From the NCBI GenBank assembly GCA_016191015.1, contig JACPPM010000133.1:1-62546 (forward strand): 62,546 nt of DNA. Reading direction: 5' to 3'. This document shows, piece by piece, positions 5,675 through 12,569 of the stretch (its first letter is position 1; each line of letters begins with the position of its first letter). Below the pieces are notes generated by a model. The model did not search any database. It was not told where the DNA came from and saw nothing but the letters and a program-made list of their open reading frames with translations. Position numbers and translations under genes: made by a program. The DNA is from Acidobacteriota bacterium. Lineage in GTDB: Bacteria; Acidobacteriota; CAIWXX01.

Positions 5675-5806
5675 TCACTTCTTTTCGATCGACGCCTTCA
5701 AGAGCGCGATCTCTTTTTGCAGGGTCGAGAGCCGGGTCTGGAGGAAACGGAGGTAGCCAAAAAGCACTACCCAGACAAAACAATAGGCTGCGAAAAGGTA
5801 GGTCAT
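5675..5806 (-). CDS. ccmD: CcmD-like small membrane protein
   Basis: A 43-residue protein with one N-terminal membrane helix (MTYLFAAYCFVWVVLFGYL) and a charged tail ending in IEKK. CcmD is the small partner that helps release haem-loaded CcmE from the CcmABC complex. The ATG lies 3 bp after the ccmC stop. Size, topology and position at the end of ccmA-B-C all match; the sequence itself is too short for more. It is easily missed because of its size. Confidence 0.85.
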   Translation of the reverse strand: MTYLFAAYCFVWVVLFGYLRFLQTRLSTLQKEIALLKASIEKK

Positions 5807-5809
5807 GAT

Positions 5810-6502
5810 CTATTCCTTGATTGCAATGAGGCGATCCAGTTCGGCCAGGTCCTGCTCGGCGCGCCTGACGCCCGCTGAGAGGCGCGTGAGGATTGCGAAC
5901 AGGATCGTGAAGACAGCGAGCGTGAAGAAGAAAGCGAGCCGCATCTGGGGATCGAGCCCGCTGCCCTCCCCGCCGGCGAAGACTGGCTGCGGGTGCTGCG
6001 TTCGCCACCACCTGATCGACATATACACGATCGGCACGTCGACGAAGCCAACGATCCCGACAACGGCGGCCAGCAACGCCTTTCTTCTCTCCTCTTCCAC
6101 GAACCCGCGCAGCAACAGGTAGCTGGCGTAAATGAGCCACAGGACGAGGGTCGACGTGAGCCGCGCGTCCCAGGTCCACCAGATGCCCCAGGCCGGCCTT
6201 GCCCAGATCGGCCCCGTCACCAGAACGATCGTGCAAAAAATAACCCCGACTTCGGCCGATGCAAGGGCCAGGCGGTCGTATCGGAGATTGCGAGTCATGA
6301 TGTAGGCAACGCTGGCGAGAAACACCATGAAGAAGGCCAGAAAGGCCACCCATGCCGACGGGACGTGGAAGTAAAAGATGCGCTGGACGTGCCCCATCGT
6401 CCGCTCGATGGGCGCGAAAAGGAAGATCAGGTAGAGCGATGTCAGCATGGCAAAAAAAAGGACATACGAGAGCGTGCTCCAGACCGTATCGCGTTCTCTC
6501 AT
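5810..6502 (-). CDS. ccmC: Haem exporter / CcmC, tryptophan-rich motif protein
   Basis: CcmC loads haem onto the chaperone CcmE at the outer face of the inner membrane. About 230 residues with six membrane helices are visible. The WWD motif is ARPAWGIWWTWDARLTS, and conserved histidines flank it (for example in QRIFYFHVPSAW and MSIRWWRTQHPQP). I chose the ATG at 6502 because GGGAG lies 7 bp before it; an ATG four codons upstream has no ribosome site. Downstream ccmD follows after 3 bp, and ccmB lies 146 bp upstream. Confidence 0.95.
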   Translation of the reverse strand: MRERDTVWSTLSYVLFFAMLTSLYLIFLFAPIERTMGHVQRIFYFHVPSAWVAFLAFFMVFLASVAYIMTRNLRYDRLALASAEVGVIFCTIVLVTGPIWARPAWGIWWTWDARLTSTLVLWLIYASYLLLRGFVEEERRKALLAAVVGIVGFVDVPIVYMSIRWWRTQHPQPVFAGGEGSGLDPQMRLAFFFTLAVFTILFAILTRLSAGVRRAEQDLAELDRLIAIKE

Positions 6503-6648
6503 AGAATCTCCCATCAGGAAGAAATCAGCAGCCGCTCCGGCGTGCTCGGCCTCACGGCAATCCTATTCCAGCACTTCGGGTGTCTCATGTCCACTCGCAG
6601 GAGTGGAGCAGGCACGGAGGCCGGCGACATCGGGACGCTGGAGGTCCA

Positions 6649-7338
6649 TCATGATTGCTCTTCAAGCACAAACTCGAAGAGGATGTAGGCGAGGGTGGCG
6701 AAGACGATGTCGAAGACGACGATGAGTTTGATCCACATTGCGGCCCACGCGAGCGGTTCCCCGCGGATGATCGTTGAGGCGGCCTTGACCGAACCGATCA
6801 CGGCCGGGATGTAGACGGGGAAAACCAGGAGGGGCATGAGGATCTCACGCATCCGCGCGCTCAAGGTCAGCGCAGAGAAGAGGGTTGATACGGCGCAGAA
6901 TCCGAATGTCCCAAGACAGATCACGGCGAGAAACCAACCGAAGTCCGGAAAGAGGCTGAAGTTGAAAAACACGAAGAAAAACGGGAGAAGCAACGCCTCC
7001 TGAACCAATGCGAACGTGAAGTTGGAGAGCAACTTTCCGAGGAAGATCAGACCGCGATCGACGGGCATGAGGAGTGTTGAGTCGAGAGAGCCGTATTCCT
7101 TCTCCAGACCAAACGACCGGCTGATGCCCAAAGTCAGGCTGAAGGTGAAAGCGATCCAGAGCATCCCGCCGGCAGCCGATTTCATCTCGGCCGGACTGAA
7201 CTCGAAGGAGAAGTTGAAGATCGTGAGCACCAGAAGCCCGAAAACGAACATCGGCAGAAGAGATTCGCGCGAACGAAACTCGAGCTTGATGTCCTTGCTG
7301 TAGAGCGAGGCGAGTTGTTTGAGCGGATGAGGAGCCAT
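6649..7338 (-). CDS. ccmB: Haem exporter membrane subunit CcmB
   Basis: Membrane subunit of the CcmAB ABC module that drives release of haem-loaded CcmE. The 229 residues have six predicted helices. The start, KQLASLYSKDIKLEFRSRES, is the typical cytosolic entry of CcmB and is followed by FVFGLLVLTIFNFSFEFSP. It lies 88 bp downstream of ccmA and 146 bp upstream of the chosen ccmC start, looser spacing than in the rest of the operon. No clear ribosome site precedes the ATG. Confidence 0.93.
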   Translation of the reverse strand: MAPHPLKQLASLYSKDIKLEFRSRESLLPMFVFGLLVLTIFNFSFEFSPAEMKSAAGGMLWIAFTFSLTLGISRSFGLEKEYGSLDSTLLMPVDRGLIFLGKLLSNFTFALVQEALLLPFFFVFFNFSLFPDFGWFLAVICLGTFGFCAVSTLFSALTLSARMREILMPLLVFPVYIPAVIGSVKAASTIIRGEPLAWAAMWIKLIVVFDIVFATLAYILFEFVLEEQS

Positions 7339-7426: not shown

Positions 7427-8140
7427 TCACGTTTCCACTCTCTCACGTTTCCCCGCGAGCCCCATGATCCCCCGGTACGCGACTCTCCCTTCTTGCTCTC
7501 CGCCGTCATACGCGATCCGCCCTCGTTCGAGAATGACCGCGCGGTCGCACAGGGCCATCGTCCTTTCGTAGTCGTGGGAGGAGACCAGGCAGGTGCATCC
7601 ACCCGACCGGAGTTGTATGAGTACTTCCGACATTCGCTCTGAGGTCCGCTCGTCCAGCCCGCTGAACGGCTCATCCCAGAGGAGGAGGTGCGGCTCGCCG
7701 AGCAGTCCGCGGGCAATTGCCGCGCGCTGCTGCCACCCACGGCTCAAACATCGTACCTCCGCATCGGCGTAAACGCCGAGCTCGAGGCGGTCGATGATTT
7801 CCCGCACGCGATCCGCGGGGACCGCCACGCCCGCAAGGTGAGCGAAATACTCCAGATTCTCTCGGACCGTCAGACTCGGATAGAGGCCGACGCCATGCCC
7901 GAGGAACCCGATGGCCGCTCTCTGTGCGACGTGCTTCCAGGGATCGCTCCCGAACACCATCACACTTCCAGAGGAGGGCCGCAAGAGCGCGGCGCAGATT
8001 CTCAGAAGCGTGCTTTTGCCGGCTCCGTTCTGGCCGAACAGCCCCACACACTCGCCGCGCGCGAGCGTCAGCGACACATCCTTCAAGGCGTACGATCGCC
8101 CGTAGACCTTGGTAACCCCGCTGGTCTGGAGCGCGTCCAC
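7427..8140 (-). CDS. ccmA: ABC transporter ATPase CcmA
   Basis: ATPase of the cytochrome c maturation ABC module. The 237 residues contain Walker A GQNGAGKST, a signature segment LSRGWQQRAAIARGL and Walker B LLLWDEPFSGLD, then the switch histidine in LVSSHDYE. It begins with GTG 8 bp after the preceding membrane-anchored gene. The C-terminus (KRERVET) is encoded in an exact 16-bp duplication (7419-7450) that spans the stop codon, so the last residues may be of recent origin. Confidence 0.93.
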   Translation of the reverse strand: MDALQTSGVTKVYGRSYALKDVSLTLARGECVGLFGQNGAGKSTLLRICAALLRPSSGSVMVFGSDPWKHVAQRAAIGFLGHGVGLYPSLTVRENLEYFAHLAGVAVPADRVREIIDRLELGVYADAEVRCLSRGWQQRAAIARGLLGEPHLLLWDEPFSGLDERTSERMSEVLIQLRSGGCTCLVSSHDYERTMALCDRAVILERGRIAYDGGEQEGRVAYRGIMGLAGKRERVET

Positions 8141-8148
8141 GTGCGGTG

Positions 8149-9162
8149 TCAGCGCTTCTTCGTTTCCTGGTCCGGCAATTCGCGCAGGCCGAACCAGAAC
8201 CCCAGACTGATCACGATCACCATCAGCAGGATCAACTCGGTGCGGTAGCGGAAGAGCGCAGGAGGATGCTCTATCACCTGATCCTCACCGTGAGGCGCCT
8301 GGTCTGCCGCCATCGACCCGGCAGATGCAGCTTCCCCTGCAAGAGACATTTCGAGAGCACCTCCCTTCGCCAGTGGCCCGCCCGCATACTCCGCGAACCC
8401 ACTCTGACTCTCCCCCCTCGACTCCAGCCCCTCCGACTCCACCGCAATCGACGGCGGGATCACGAACACGTGGTAGCCCTCGACAGGATAGAAAAACTCC
8501 TGTCTGTACTCGAAACGGCCGGTGTAGGGAGCCTTGAACACGAGGCTGATCTGCGTGTGGCCGGGCTTGATCGGGTACTTCACGGCATAATGCCCGGTTT
8601 GTCCCAGCCGCGCCACTTCCTGAGGCGTCGGCATCTGTGACGTCGTCGCGGTCGCCGACTCGACCCGATCGAAGCCTGCCGGAAGTGCGAACTTCAATCC
8701 CTCGGAGCTCACCGTCCTCCCGGCGTTGTTCACGTCGAAGGTCAGGTCGGCTGTGATCGTCGAGGCGTCAATTCCGAGCACCAGATGGGGCAGCGACACC
8801 GTGATCTTGCTTTCGTCCGTGCCGACATCGTAGACCGTGATGGCCTTCTCGAGGAGATTGCTCCGGTCGAATGTGAACTGCGTGTTGTAGCGAACGTCTT
8901 TGTAGGTGACCTGAAGGAGGTACTGTTCAGCCGGCGCCAGGTCCGTGAAGTCAAAGGCTGCTCCCGGGTTCTCGCGCGACCCCACTTCGTCCATGCCTTG
9001 GCCGAGCGTCATCAGCACGGCTGTCTCCGGCGACACCGGCTGCCCCGTCGTTCCGTTCGTCACGCGGCAGCGCAGCTCCGCCGCATCCAGCGTGCACAAC
9101 AGCAGTTGTCCGACGACGATACTGCCGCAGAGCGTCCGGAGTACTGTGAGCTCCCTATTCAC
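8149..9162 (-). CDS. Membrane-anchored protein of the ccm operon, function unknown
   Basis: A 337-residue protein that I cannot place in a named family. The GTG at 9162 overlaps the stop of the CcmI-like gene by 8 bp and gives a signal peptide (CGSIVVGQLLLCTLDA) before AELRC. The body looks like beta-rich domains: GTTGQPVSPETAVL resembles a carboxypeptidase-regulatory or Big-type fold, and later segments read YAVKYPIKPGHTQISLVFKAPY. Near the C-terminus is one membrane helix (LILLMVIVISLGFWFGL) and a short basic tail. Its place between ccmI-like and ccmA implies a periplasmic role in cytochrome c assembly; that is inference. Confidence 0.8.
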   Translation of the reverse strand: MNRELTVLRTLCGSIVVGQLLLCTLDAAELRCRVTNGTTGQPVSPETAVLMTLGQGMDEVGSRENPGAAFDFTDLAPAEQYLLQVTYKDVRYNTQFTFDRSNLLEKAITVYDVGTDESKITVSLPHLVLGIDASTITADLTFDVNNAGRTVSSEGLKFALPAGFDRVESATATTSQMPTPQEVARLGQTGHYAVKYPIKPGHTQISLVFKAPYTGRFEYRQEFFYPVEGYHVFVIPPSIAVESEGLESRGESQSGFAEYAGGPLAKGGALEMSLAGEAASAGSMAADQAPHGEDQVIEHPPALFRYRTELILLMVIVISLGFWFGLRELPDQETKKR

Positions 9163-9598
9163 GGATCTTCGCCCCGCACTCGTTGCAGAACCTGTTGGGG
9201 CGTGGATTGGCCGCTCCGCAATTCCCGCAGTACCACTTCCCCTTCGACGGTTGCGAACCGACCGGCTGCGAGCCGACCGGAGTGGCCTCCGCCGCGCTGT
9301 CCGCTTTCCCCATCCCGCTCCCGCCCGCGGTGGATTCGAGCCTCTTCTCGAGGGCCACCACTTCCTGGATCGACTCCTCCCGCAGACGCCTGTAGTCCCC
9401 CTCCGCAAGCCTGCCCATTTGGAATTCGGCATCCAGATCCACGATATTCTCGAGCACCTGCTCCCGCTTCTCCTGAAGGTACTTCTGCTTCTGGTCGGCG
9501 ACGGGGTTCTTCCCCTGTTCCTGCCTGTCTCGAAACACGGGAATGAGCATGAATCCGAAAGTGCCGACGGCGAGGAGGGCGATCGCGAGCGCGGTCAT
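9155..9598 (-). CDS. CcmI-like membrane protein with C-terminal zinc ribbon
   Basis: A 147-residue protein. Residues 4-22 form one membrane helix (LAIALLAVGTFGFMLIPVF). A charged coiled-coil with the segment NIVDLDAEFQMGRLAEGDY follows, recalling the short N-terminal part of CcmI/CycH. A Gly/Ser-rich linker leads to a zinc ribbon with Cys124-x2-Cys127 and Cys138-x2-Cys141. The start at 9598 overlaps ccmH by 4 bp (ATGA), and the stop overlaps the next gene by 8 bp. TPR repeats of proteobacterial CcmI are absent. If the helix is a normal anchor, the ribbon side of the membrane is uncertain. Confidence 0.85.
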   Translation of the reverse strand: MTALAIALLAVGTFGFMLIPVFRDRQEQGKNPVADQKQKYLQEKREQVLENIVDLDAEFQMGRLAEGDYRRLREESIQEVVALEKRLESTAGGSGMGKADSAAEATPVGSQPVGSQPSKGKWYCGNCGAANPRPNRFCNECGAKIRE

Positions 9599-10137
9599 TC
9601 GCGTTCCCTCGCGCGAAGCTCGTCCTCGATCCTCACGCGCACCTGATCCTGATCCGAGTCGGGCTGGGCTGGGCTTCCCGTGGCCGTCGCCGAGCGACGT
9701 TGAGTCCTCAGGAAAAAGTAGATGACCAGCAACCCGATGGCGATCATGACGAACGGTGTCACCCACGCCGTGATGTCGAATCCCTTGCCGGTCGGCGCTG
9801 CGAGGATCACGGGGCCAAACCGGTCGACCATGACCTTGATAATCGCGTCGTCGGACTCCCCGTTGCGGATGCGCATCTCGACCTCTTTACGCAAGGGGAT
9901 AGCCGAGGGGCAGCCGACATGGTTGCAATCGGCAAGGCCCATCTGGCACCCGCACTGGCAGATCAGCGATTTTGTGATCTTCTGAAATCGTGCGGCCTGA
10001 GCCGGGTCGGTCAGATCCGACTTTGCTGATTGAGCCGAGGCCAAGCAGGCCAAAAAGAGCATCCATCCTGCCAGGAACAGGGTGCCTCGCCTCGCGCCTT
10101 TGAACTTTGAACTCTGAACTTTGAGCTCCCTAGGCAC
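9595..10137 (-). CDS. ccmH: CcmH-like thiol reductase, cysteine-rich active site
   Basis: CcmH keeps apocytochrome c thiols reduced and works with CcmF in haem ligation. From the GTG at 10137 (8-bp overlap with ccmF) the product is 180 residues: signal peptide, then SLICQCGCQMGLADCNHVGC with cysteines 60, 62, 64, 71 and 76, then the conserved LRKEVEMRIRNGESDDAIIKV helix region, RFGPVILAAPTGKGFD, and a C-terminal membrane helix. Classical CcmH has LRCxxCQ; here the motif is CxCxC with two more cysteines. The N-terminus (LKVQSSKFKGA) is encoded by an 8-bp word repeat, so the first residues may be recent. Confidence 0.88.
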   Translation of the reverse strand: MPRELKVQSSKFKGARRGTLFLAGWMLFLACLASAQSAKSDLTDPAQAARFQKITKSLICQCGCQMGLADCNHVGCPSAIPLRKEVEMRIRNGESDDAIIKVMVDRFGPVILAAPTGKGFDITAWVTPFVMIAIGLLVIYFFLRTQRRSATATGSPAQPDSDQDQVRVRIEDELRARERE

Positions 10138-12115
10138 GCGAACGTCCCGTTCCGAGCTTGTCGGGCATGAGTGCGATGAGAGTGCCGAGCACGAAGAGGG
10201 CTCCGCCGAGCCAGACCCAACGCACGAGCGGGTTGAGATAGACCTGGATAATGGCCCGTTGCTCATCATCAGTCCGCCCGGCAAAGACGAGATAGAGATC
10301 CTCCTTCATTGTCGAGTGGATCGCCACTTCTGTAGTCGGCTGCTGACTCGCTTTGTACATCCTTCGCTCGGGATACATCATCCCAATATCGCGGCCATCC
10401 CGCAAGATCTGGAGACTGGCCTTTTCGGCCAGATAGTTGGGGGTATCGATTTCGTCGAGCTTCTGGCACTTGATCGTGTACCTCTTGAAGTGCGCCTCCT
10501 CCCCCGCCTGCAGATTTGCCTTCGATTCCGCGTTGAACGCACCACCGGCAAACCCGGTAAACAGCATCACGATAGCCATGTGAACAATGTAGCCGCCGTA
10601 GCGCCGCTTGTTCTTCATCGTCAGGTGGAAGACGGCCAACGGGAAATTCTCGTCCGTGTTCCGTTGGCGGGCCCGCGCACCCCGGTAAAATTCGAATACG
10701 ATCGTCACCGCAACGAGAGTGCCGATCGAGAGCGCCATCAGAGCGTAGGTATCTCGGTAGCCGAGGATAGCGAGGACTGCAGCCACCAGCACGGCGCAGG
10801 AGACCGGAACGAGCAGATTGCGGCGGAGACTTTCGAGCGACGTCCGGCGCCAGGCGAAGAGCGGCCCCACACCGGTCAGGAGGAGCAGAAAGATCCCCAC
10901 CGGCACATTGATGCGATTGAAGAAAGGCGCCCCGACCGTGATCTTGTGCCCCTGGACCGCTTCCGAAATGATCGGGAAGATCGTCCCCCAGAGAACCGCG
11001 AAGCAGGCCCCGAGCAGAATCAGGTTGTTGAAGAGGAACGAGCTTTCCCGCGAGATCACCGAATCCAGCTTGTTCTCGCTCTTGAGATCCGGCAGACGAA
11101 TGATGATGAAGTACGCCGAAACGCTGATGATGACGACGAGAAAGACGGCGAAGTAGGTGCCAATCGAAGATTGCGCGAACGCGTGTACGGAGGAGACGAT
11201 GCCGCTGCGCGTCAGAAAGGTCCCGAAAATCGAGAGGACGAAGCCGAGCGTGACCAGCACCATGTTCCACACCTTCAGCATCCCCTTGCGCTCCTGGATC
11301 ATCACTGAGTGCAGGAAGGCGGTCATGGCGAGCCACGGCATGAGCGAGGCGTTTTCGACCGGGTCCCAGCCCCAGTAGCCGCCCCAGCCGAGCTCGACGT
11401 AGGCCCACTTCGCGCCGAGAATGATGCCCACGCCGAGGAACAGCCACGCCACCAAGGTCCACCGGCGCGTCGCCTGGATCCAGTCGCTGCTGAGCCGTCT
11501 CGTGATCAGCGCGGCCAACGCGAACGCGAAGGGAACGATGCACCCGACATAGCCGAGATAGAGAAGCGGGGGATGGATGATCATCGCCCAGTGCTGCAGA
11601 AGCGGATTGAGGCCCTGTCCATCAACGGGGGCGAACGAGACAATGCTCCCGTCCGCGTGCACCGTCATCAGCTCGTTGAACGGATTGGAGACGAAGACAT
11701 GCAGCGTCGCGAAGAAGAAAATCGTCGACAGGAAAACCGTCGTGACGTATGGCATCAGCTCGGGGAAGCGCTTCCTGTTCGTCGCCACCACGGCTGTTCC
11801 ATACAACGACAGAAGGAGGCCCCAGAAGACGAGCGATCCTTCCTGACCGGCCCAGATCGACGTGAGCTTGTAGAAGATCGGCAGATCGCGGTTCGTGTGC
11901 CCGGCGACGTACGCGTAGTTGAAATCGCTGATCCAGAGAAGATACAGCATCGACGCGGTGACGATGATGTACAGTGCCGCGCAGTTGTATACTGCCCTCT
12001 GCGCAATCGCCAGGAAATGTCTCGACTCCGGTCGGCGCCCGATCATCGCAGCTACCACCCCGAAGGCGGAGAAGATCAGAATGCAGAGCAGCGCAAAGCT
12101 GCCGATGTTGGCCAT
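10130..12115 (-). CDS. ccmF: Cytochrome c haem lyase subunit CcmF
   Basis: CcmF attaches haem from CcmE to apocytochrome c. The 661 residues from ATG 12115 form about 14-15 membrane helices. The WWD-type motif is WGGYWGWDPVENASLMPWL, and typical histidines are seen in LLQHWAMIIHPPLLYLGYVG. The large C-terminal periplasmic part (NAESKANLQAGEEAHFKRYTI onwards) is present. Longer upstream reading is antisense-like and lacks a start signal. It lies 19 bp after ccmE, and its stop lies inside ccmH. Confidence 0.96.
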   Translation of the reverse strand: MANIGSFALLCILIFSAFGVVAAMIGRRPESRHFLAIAQRAVYNCAALYIIVTASMLYLLWISDFNYAYVAGHTNRDLPIFYKLTSIWAGQEGSLVFWGLLLSLYGTAVVATNRKRFPELMPYVTTVFLSTIFFFATLHVFVSNPFNELMTVHADGSIVSFAPVDGQGLNPLLQHWAMIIHPPLLYLGYVGCIVPFAFALAALITRRLSSDWIQATRRWTLVAWLFLGVGIILGAKWAYVELGWGGYWGWDPVENASLMPWLAMTAFLHSVMIQERKGMLKVWNMVLVTLGFVLSIFGTFLTRSGIVSSVHAFAQSSIGTYFAVFLVVIISVSAYFIIIRLPDLKSENKLDSVISRESSFLFNNLILLGACFAVLWGTIFPIISEAVQGHKITVGAPFFNRINVPVGIFLLLLTGVGPLFAWRRTSLESLRRNLLVPVSCAVLVAAVLAILGYRDTYALMALSIGTLVAVTIVFEFYRGARARQRNTDENFPLAVFHLTMKNKRRYGGYIVHMAIVMLFTGFAGGAFNAESKANLQAGEEAHFKRYTIKCQKLDEIDTPNYLAEKASLQILRDGRDIGMMYPERRMYKASQQPTTEVAIHSTMKEDLYLVFAGRTDDEQRAIIQVYLNPLVRWVWLGGALFVLGTLIALMPDKLGTGRSRA

Positions 12116-12134: not shown

Positions 12135-12569
12135 TCAGAGCCCGGCTGGCTGCTGCGGCGGCGCCGGCGGGCCGCCGGTCGGAGCCTGATTCTGAGCCTC
12201 GTACTTCGAAGCGCACTTGGCCTGGAGGGCGTCGGCCTGGAAGTCACCCTGTTCCATGTACCGTCCCTCGACCACCACCTGCGCATGCTCGACGAAGGTG
12301 TCCGGCAGAGGTCCACTGCCCGTGTAGCAGACCCGCAAACTCTTCCCCTTCTGCGCAATCACAAAATCGACCTGACCCTCTCTCTTCTTGATCGAGCCAG
12401 GAACGACCTCGCCCGCGACCTTCAGTCGATATCGGTGCGCGTCATTCCCCATCGCGTAGAGCTCGTCGACGGTTTTATAGTATGCCTTGGCCCCCTCGAA
12501 CCCGGTGGCCGCCAGCCAGATGATCGCGCCGGCAATGACCACGATCCCGGCCACGAACTTAGGTTTCAT
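12135..12569 (-). CDS. ccmE: Haem chaperone CcmE, cysteine (CxxxY) variant
   Basis: CcmE carries haem from CcmC to CcmF. The 144 residues have one N-terminal anchor (FVAGIVVIAGAIIWLAATG) and the OB-fold (HRYRLKVAGEVVPGSIK, VCYTGSGPLPDTFVEHAQVVVEG). Where the classical protein has HxxxY, this one has CASKY, with Cys119 and Tyr123: the variant known from archaea and some bacteria such as Desulfovibrio. A Pro-rich tail ends the protein. It is the first gene of the ccm operon, with AGGAGG before the ATG and a good sigma-70 promoter 31 bp upstream. Confidence 0.95.
   Translation of the reverse strand: MKPKFVAGIVVIAGAIIWLAATGFEGAKAYYKTVDELYAMGNDAHRYRLKVAGEVVPGSIKKREGQVDFVIAQKGKSLRVCYTGSGPLPDTFVEHAQVVVEGRYMEQGDFQADALQAKCASKYEAQNQAPTGGPPAPPQQPAGL

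Follow-up and report, generated by a model that had tools for sequence, protein, structure and literature searches.

A ccm operon with a cysteine-type CcmE

The stretch of DNA analysed here (the window; 62,546 nucleotides from an Acidobacteriota bacterium, contig JACPPM010000133.1) contains a cytochrome c maturation operon on the minus strand, in the order ccmE–ccmF–ccmH–(short ccmI-like)–X–ccmA–ccmB–ccmC–ccmD (Table 1). The ccmI-like gene overlaps both ccmH and X by a few bases, and all reading frames are intact, which led us to reject a broken gene. In CcmF, the WWD motif is kept and the residues aligned with H173, H261 and H303 of the E. coli protein are histidine in all 103 aligned rows. 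The NCBIfam score of CcmA falls below its cut-off, so this protein was assigned by gene order together with similarity. The short CcmI-like protein does not reach the CcmI family threshold (TIGR03142, 20.2 bits versus a cut-off of 29.3), and its end scores below the cut-off for a zinc ribbon (Zn_Ribbon_1, 23.2 versus 25 bits). Similar proteins, with one transmembrane helix, a coil and a zinc-ribbon-like CxxC...CxxC end, occur in both genera of the window's family (also L252:10799-11191 (+)). No thioredoxin-like gene that could encode CcmG was found among the operon reading frames scanned. The source genome (6.43 Mb, 100% complete) contains one match each to the CcmE, CcmH and CcdA/DsbD families.

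Table 1. Genes and sites of the ccm operon in the window
Feature	Position	Strand	Description
ccmE	12135..12569	(-)	144 aa membrane-anchored haem chaperone, CxxxY (C119-Y123); PF03100 1.1e-23, 83.9 bits versus cut-off 24.6
Cys119 codon TGC	12213..12215 (read 12215-12213)	(-)	expected haem-binding residue, from sequence and alignment with His-type CcmE
ccmF	10130..12115	(-)	661 aa haem lyase; PF16327 and PF01578; WWD motif, three conserved histidines
ccmF start	ATG at 12115	(-)	preceded by GAGGAGG
ccmH	9595..10062	(-)	PF03918 2.9e-26, 91.9 bits versus cut-off 25; signal peptide, CcmH three-helix domain, TM helix
ccmH start (uncertain)	ATG at 10062	(-)	sole nearby ATG
five-cysteine cluster of CcmH	9910..9960	(-)	CQCGCQMGLADCNHVGC; all five Cys invariant in 32 sequences
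short ccmI-like	9155..9598	(-)	one TM helix, coil, zinc-ribbon-like CxxC...CxxC end; without TPR
protein X	8149..9162	(-)	signal peptide (by inspection), beta-rich periplasmic region and one TM helix at the C terminus; probable start GTG at 9162
ccmA	7427..8140	(-)	ABC ATPase; PF00005; TIGR01189 116.9 bits, below cut-off 131.6
ccmB	6649..7338	(-)	PF03379 1.5e-32
ccmC	5810..6514	(-)	WWD motif; PF01578 3.9e-33; TIGR01191 150.4 bits, below cut-off 186
ccmD	5675..5806	(-)	43 aa; TIGR04391 46.2 bits versus cut-off 24

Translation of ccmE revealed a C-terminal stretch, LQAKCASKYEAQ, in which Cys119 lies in KCASKY and is followed by Tyr123, so that the protein carries CxxxY in place of the HxxxY of classical System I. 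Alignment with E. coli CcmE (1sr3) set AKCAS over AKHDE, with the site at the edge of the aligned stretch, and residue 119 thus takes the position of the histidine in E. coli AKHDENY. Across 33 aligned cysteine-type CcmEs, K111, C112, K115 and Y116 (positions counted in the aligned piece) never vary, and we therefore rejected a chance motif. A second, His-type CcmE was likewise rejected, because the genome has only one CcmE. The translation, the Pfam match and the alignments thus bear out the preliminary description of the locus, which had placed the haem site at Cys119 in CASKY and was accurate except for the strand, which it left out. It had also pointed to a CcmH-like protein with an unusual cysteine cluster in the same operon, and both the Pfam CcmH score and the cluster itself agree with this.

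A CcmH variant with five invariant cysteines

We found that the CcmH of the window belongs to the NrfF/CcmH family (PF03918) by score as well as by its predicted fold, which matches 2hl7 and 2kw0. It differs from the characterised members in lacking their CxxC thiol pair and has instead CQCGC plus two further cysteines. When aligned with Pseudomonas aeruginosa CcmH (2hl7), the five-cysteine cluster covers the CxxC region. All five cysteines are invariant in the window protein and 31 relatives, an observation that is new here. This CcmH is thus a subtype belonging to the cysteine clade, with the same fold but with CxxC replaced by CxCxC...C...C.

One reading of the cluster is that it coordinates a metal, for instance zinc, and serves to stabilize the protein rather than to exchange thiols. 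The close spacing and invariance of the five cysteines would fit such a site, as would the zinc-ribbon-like end of the adjoining CcmI-like protein, but the cluster occupies the place of the canonical redox CxxC, and the CcmH proteins encoded on Bacillota plasmids (see below) have too few cysteines at that place. We consider metal binding rather unlikely.

Distribution of cysteine-type CcmE and of CcmH

In the same phylum, 297 genomes were searched; 186 gave a CcmE match and 146 a CcmH match. The haem-site residue was read, with alignment checks, at 124 loci, sampling roughly one genome in each genus, with extra genomes for some genera. Counted by genome and with the window's own included (n = 122), 107 have the cysteine and 15 the histidine, and within the surveyed genomes the histidine form is confined to families f20, f24, f39 and f46. 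A PF03918 match is present in 78 of the 107 cysteine-type genomes. The other 29 were also negative in a second search for CcmH with a profile of the variant, in which two positive controls matched. Additionally, we collected 80 named loci from a genome collection, nearly all titled Acidobacteriota or groups within it; the search pattern demanded the cysteine, so these loci are cysteine-type by construction and carry no Cys:His ratio, but CcmH lies within the examined stretch of 36 of them. A bin titled Bordetella parapertussis (L200) has an Acidobacteriota-type cysteine ccm operon, and its title is probably a mislabel.

Most CcmHs of cysteine-type genomes differ in form from those of histidine-type genomes. 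CxxC CcmH is present in all 15 histidine-type genomes. In 76 of the 78 cysteine-type genomes with a Pfam match the CcmH could be read, and the CxC type was present in 67 of these 76 (one has an extra CxxC protein beside another ccmF, and two have an extra unlinked APCCW-like protein). The remaining nine have solely unlinked APCCW-like or similar CcmH-family proteins, and unlinked APCCW-like proteins were counted as a separate class. These vicinal-cysteine proteins (L055, L057, L058, L061, L264, L267 and L281) may act outside cytochrome c maturation. A second CcmH-like protein with CPVC occurs in two genomes (L054 in G017 and L053 in G030), and the copy in G017 adjoins another ccmF-like gene; it is possibly part of an NrfEF-like lyase. 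In families f14, f23, f28 and f45, a single frame of 820–975 residues holds CcmF together with the CcmH match, so that the two appear to be fused (L130, L131, L133, L135 and L141).

A plasmid search with CcmF matched 248 records, and two of the 60 matches listed were inspected. The ccm operons on plasmids of Metabacillus sp. B2-18 and Cytobacillus firmus resemble that of the window in the order E–F–H–I-like–X–A–B–C, in a cysteine CcmE (CPSKY) and in a CcmH linked to ccmF. They differ in having a TlpA-like gene after ccmC or ccmD and in their CcmH, where GCTDSMTADYC, of neither the CxC nor the CxxC form, replaces the five-cysteine cluster.

Much of this picture is consistent with earlier work on cysteine-type systems. 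The original description of System I* in 2006 had CcmH absent, but the 2011 review of Stevens et al. (PMC3601427) no longer holds this absence to be a characteristic feature, and it states that about one third of bacteria with a cysteine CcmE contain CcmH. The view that a cysteine CcmE mostly comes without CcmH, which had made the window seem remarkable, is therefore out of date, given this figure and the 78 of 107 genomes found here. The combination of a cysteine CcmE with CcmH has already been described, and the operon of the window is ordinary for Acidobacteriota. As grounds for setting its idea aside, the preliminary description had named the existence of many CxxxY operons with a standard CcmH; CcmH is indeed common beside CxxxY, as was largely in print by 2011, but the CcmHs in question are not standard. 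In the open-access library searched, we found nothing on CcmE or CcmH with Acidobacteria, nor on CcmH or CcmF with carboxypeptidase-regulatory-like proteins.

A single change between histidine and cysteine

To place the window among these systems, we built a quick CcmF tree (LG+G4) of 101 rows, in which G005, a genome of the window's own family, and a few other genomes appear twice and several long branches were flagged; L002, a copy of the window, was omitted from the trees. The histidine/cysteine label changes once on this tree (support 74), and the window's CcmF is nested deep within the cysteine clade. By contrast, the presence of CcmH changes at least six times among the 86 cysteine rows, some of which are drafts that may be incomplete, whereas CcmH is present in all 15 histidine rows, E. 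coli included. A CcmH tree had too few columns to add much.

These results bear on the proposal that the operon is an intermediate or mixed version of System I, that is, an evolutionary intermediate or mosaic of the His-type system and System I*. A CcmH, typical of His-type systems, does stand beside a cysteine CcmE, and CcmH comes and goes among cysteine-type genomes. However, the label changes only once with the window deep in the cysteine clade, its CcmH has the CxC form of the cysteine genomes, and we found no His-type part in the operon. The operon also has no CcmG-like gene, whereas both His-type loci with inspected reading frames have a thioredoxin-like one after ccmF. A mosaic origin is thus very improbable.

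We also considered, and do not claim, independent co-evolution of the haem-site residue of CcmE and the cysteine motif of CcmH, in which a cysteine–haem link would need a CcmH with a remodelled multi-cysteine site. The sorting of CxxC with the 15 histidine genomes and of CxC with 67 of the 76 cysteine genomes is what such coupling would produce, and the ccmF-linked CcmHs of the Bacillota plasmids also lack CxxC. Because the tree has one histidine/cysteine change, this agreement counts as one event and does not speak for coupling. Moreover, 29 cysteine-type genomes have no CcmH match, the different Bacillota motif means that no single motif accompanies the cysteine, and G017, although cysteine-type, carries a CxxC protein too. 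We regard such coupling as unlikely.

A sister-genus operon without ccmH

The nearest relative of the window on the CcmF tree, G005, carries this operon too, but the slot of ccmH is empty: at this locus (L252) ccmF stops at 10771 and the gene that follows begins at 10799. Two CcmH profiles were negative across this genome, which is 98% complete in 180 contigs and so leaves slight room for a ccmH elsewhere. Since a sister genus has an otherwise identical operon without the gene, CcmH looks dispensable. That many families have kept it with all five cysteines unchanged suggests that it is of importance in the genomes that retain it.

The G005 operon leads us to read the operon of the window as a System I* operon with an optional CcmH, not as a mixture. 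Specifically, we consider it highly probable (roughly 85%) that this is a bacterial System I* operon in which haem is carried on Cys119 of CcmE and the five-cysteine CcmH is a non-essential helper. As in the System I* of Desulfovibrio and archaea, a cysteine replaces the haem-binding histidine, CcmA, CcmB, CcmC, CcmE and CcmF are present and the operon contains no CcmG gene. The window differs in having CcmH, which is absent from the Desulfovibrio operon tested in E. coli, as reported in the 2011 review (PMC3601427), and from archaea, described as also being without CcmD and CcmI (PMC9084895). With classical System I of E. coli, the window shares the core proteins, the WWD motifs and the CcmF histidines, but it has none of the HxxxY CcmE, the CxxC CcmH and the ccmG beside ccmF that are found there.

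By homology, CcmABCD would load haem onto the periplasmic CcmE, where Cys119 would hold it in place of histidine, probably as a thioether. CcmF, which has the WWD motif and the conserved histidines, would then transfer haem to the apocytochrome's CXXCH motif, and CcmH would probably help by presenting or reducing the apocytochrome for CcmF. A cysteine CcmE that works without CcmH in the Desulfovibrio operon (PMC3601427) and the need for the CcmE cysteine in haem attachment in Methanosarcina, for which Gupta et al. (2022) conclude that cysteine and histidine are not interchangeable (PMC9084895), are consistent with this reading. The thioether is uncertain, because the CcmE of D. vulgaris reportedly binds haem non-covalently through its cysteine, according to a 2013 review (PMC3884852).

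The window bears on an open question about System I*, namely how the bond between haem and the CcmE cysteine is broken and whether CcmH takes part. Two genera of one family that have the same operon with and without ccmH offer a natural comparison, and this comparison, the five-cysteine CcmH and protein X are where the main interest of the locus lies.

Protein X in cysteine-type clusters

Protein X had no Pfam or NCBIfam family match. Its structural model (pLDDT 88.5) is beta-rich with one C-terminal helix resembling a transmembrane segment, and a fold search with it returned only generic beta-sandwich matches, mostly M1 aminopeptidases, at TM-scores (by query) of about 0.35, which we did not use to assign a function. 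Many cysteine-type operons have X between ccmI and ccmA (the window, 8149-9162 (-); L172-L250, L299 and L300). In profile searches, X was found at 22 of 51 cysteine-type survey and plasmid loci, at 31 of the 32 named cysteine loci that extend at least 2.5 kb beyond ccmF, and at none of eight His-type loci. It is also present in the Bacillota operons and adjoins ccmF on a Halorussus plasmid (L303). The annotated CcmE of that plasmid (L303:10917-11288 (-)) has neither CxxxY nor HxxxY at its end, which reads RAHEGSDN.

Across the 297 genomes, X matched in 92 at E ≤ 1e-3 and in 52 at E ≤ 1e-19; this search undercounts, as it missed X in G001 and G017, where another profile found it. All 52 genomes with strong matches are CcmE-positive, as checked by eye. 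Most of the weaker matches are short segments within long proteins. Two His-type genomes (G041 and G151) are among those weakly matched, and we take the weaker matches, these two included, as chance. On the basis of its model and distribution, X is a new, previously undescribed protein of cysteine-type ccm clusters from Acidobacteriota, Bacillota and one haloarchaeon, predicted to be beta-rich and membrane-anchored. Its absence from many complete-looking cysteine operons indicates that it is not required in general.

One possible explanation for these associations, which we put forward tentatively, is that bacterial System I*, rather than being a reduced form of System I, has a complement of its own, consisting of a cysteine CcmE, a multi-cysteine CcmH, a short CcmI without TPR and protein X, with X working with CcmF and CcmH on haem or the apocytochrome. 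According to the 2011 review (PMC3601427), compensatory features for System I* had been sought by bioinformatics and none found. The multi-cysteine CcmH and X are candidates for such features, with gene order and distribution as the basis for a functional link. Several genomes of family f7, G264 (C7) among them, also have X close to their unlinked ccmH.
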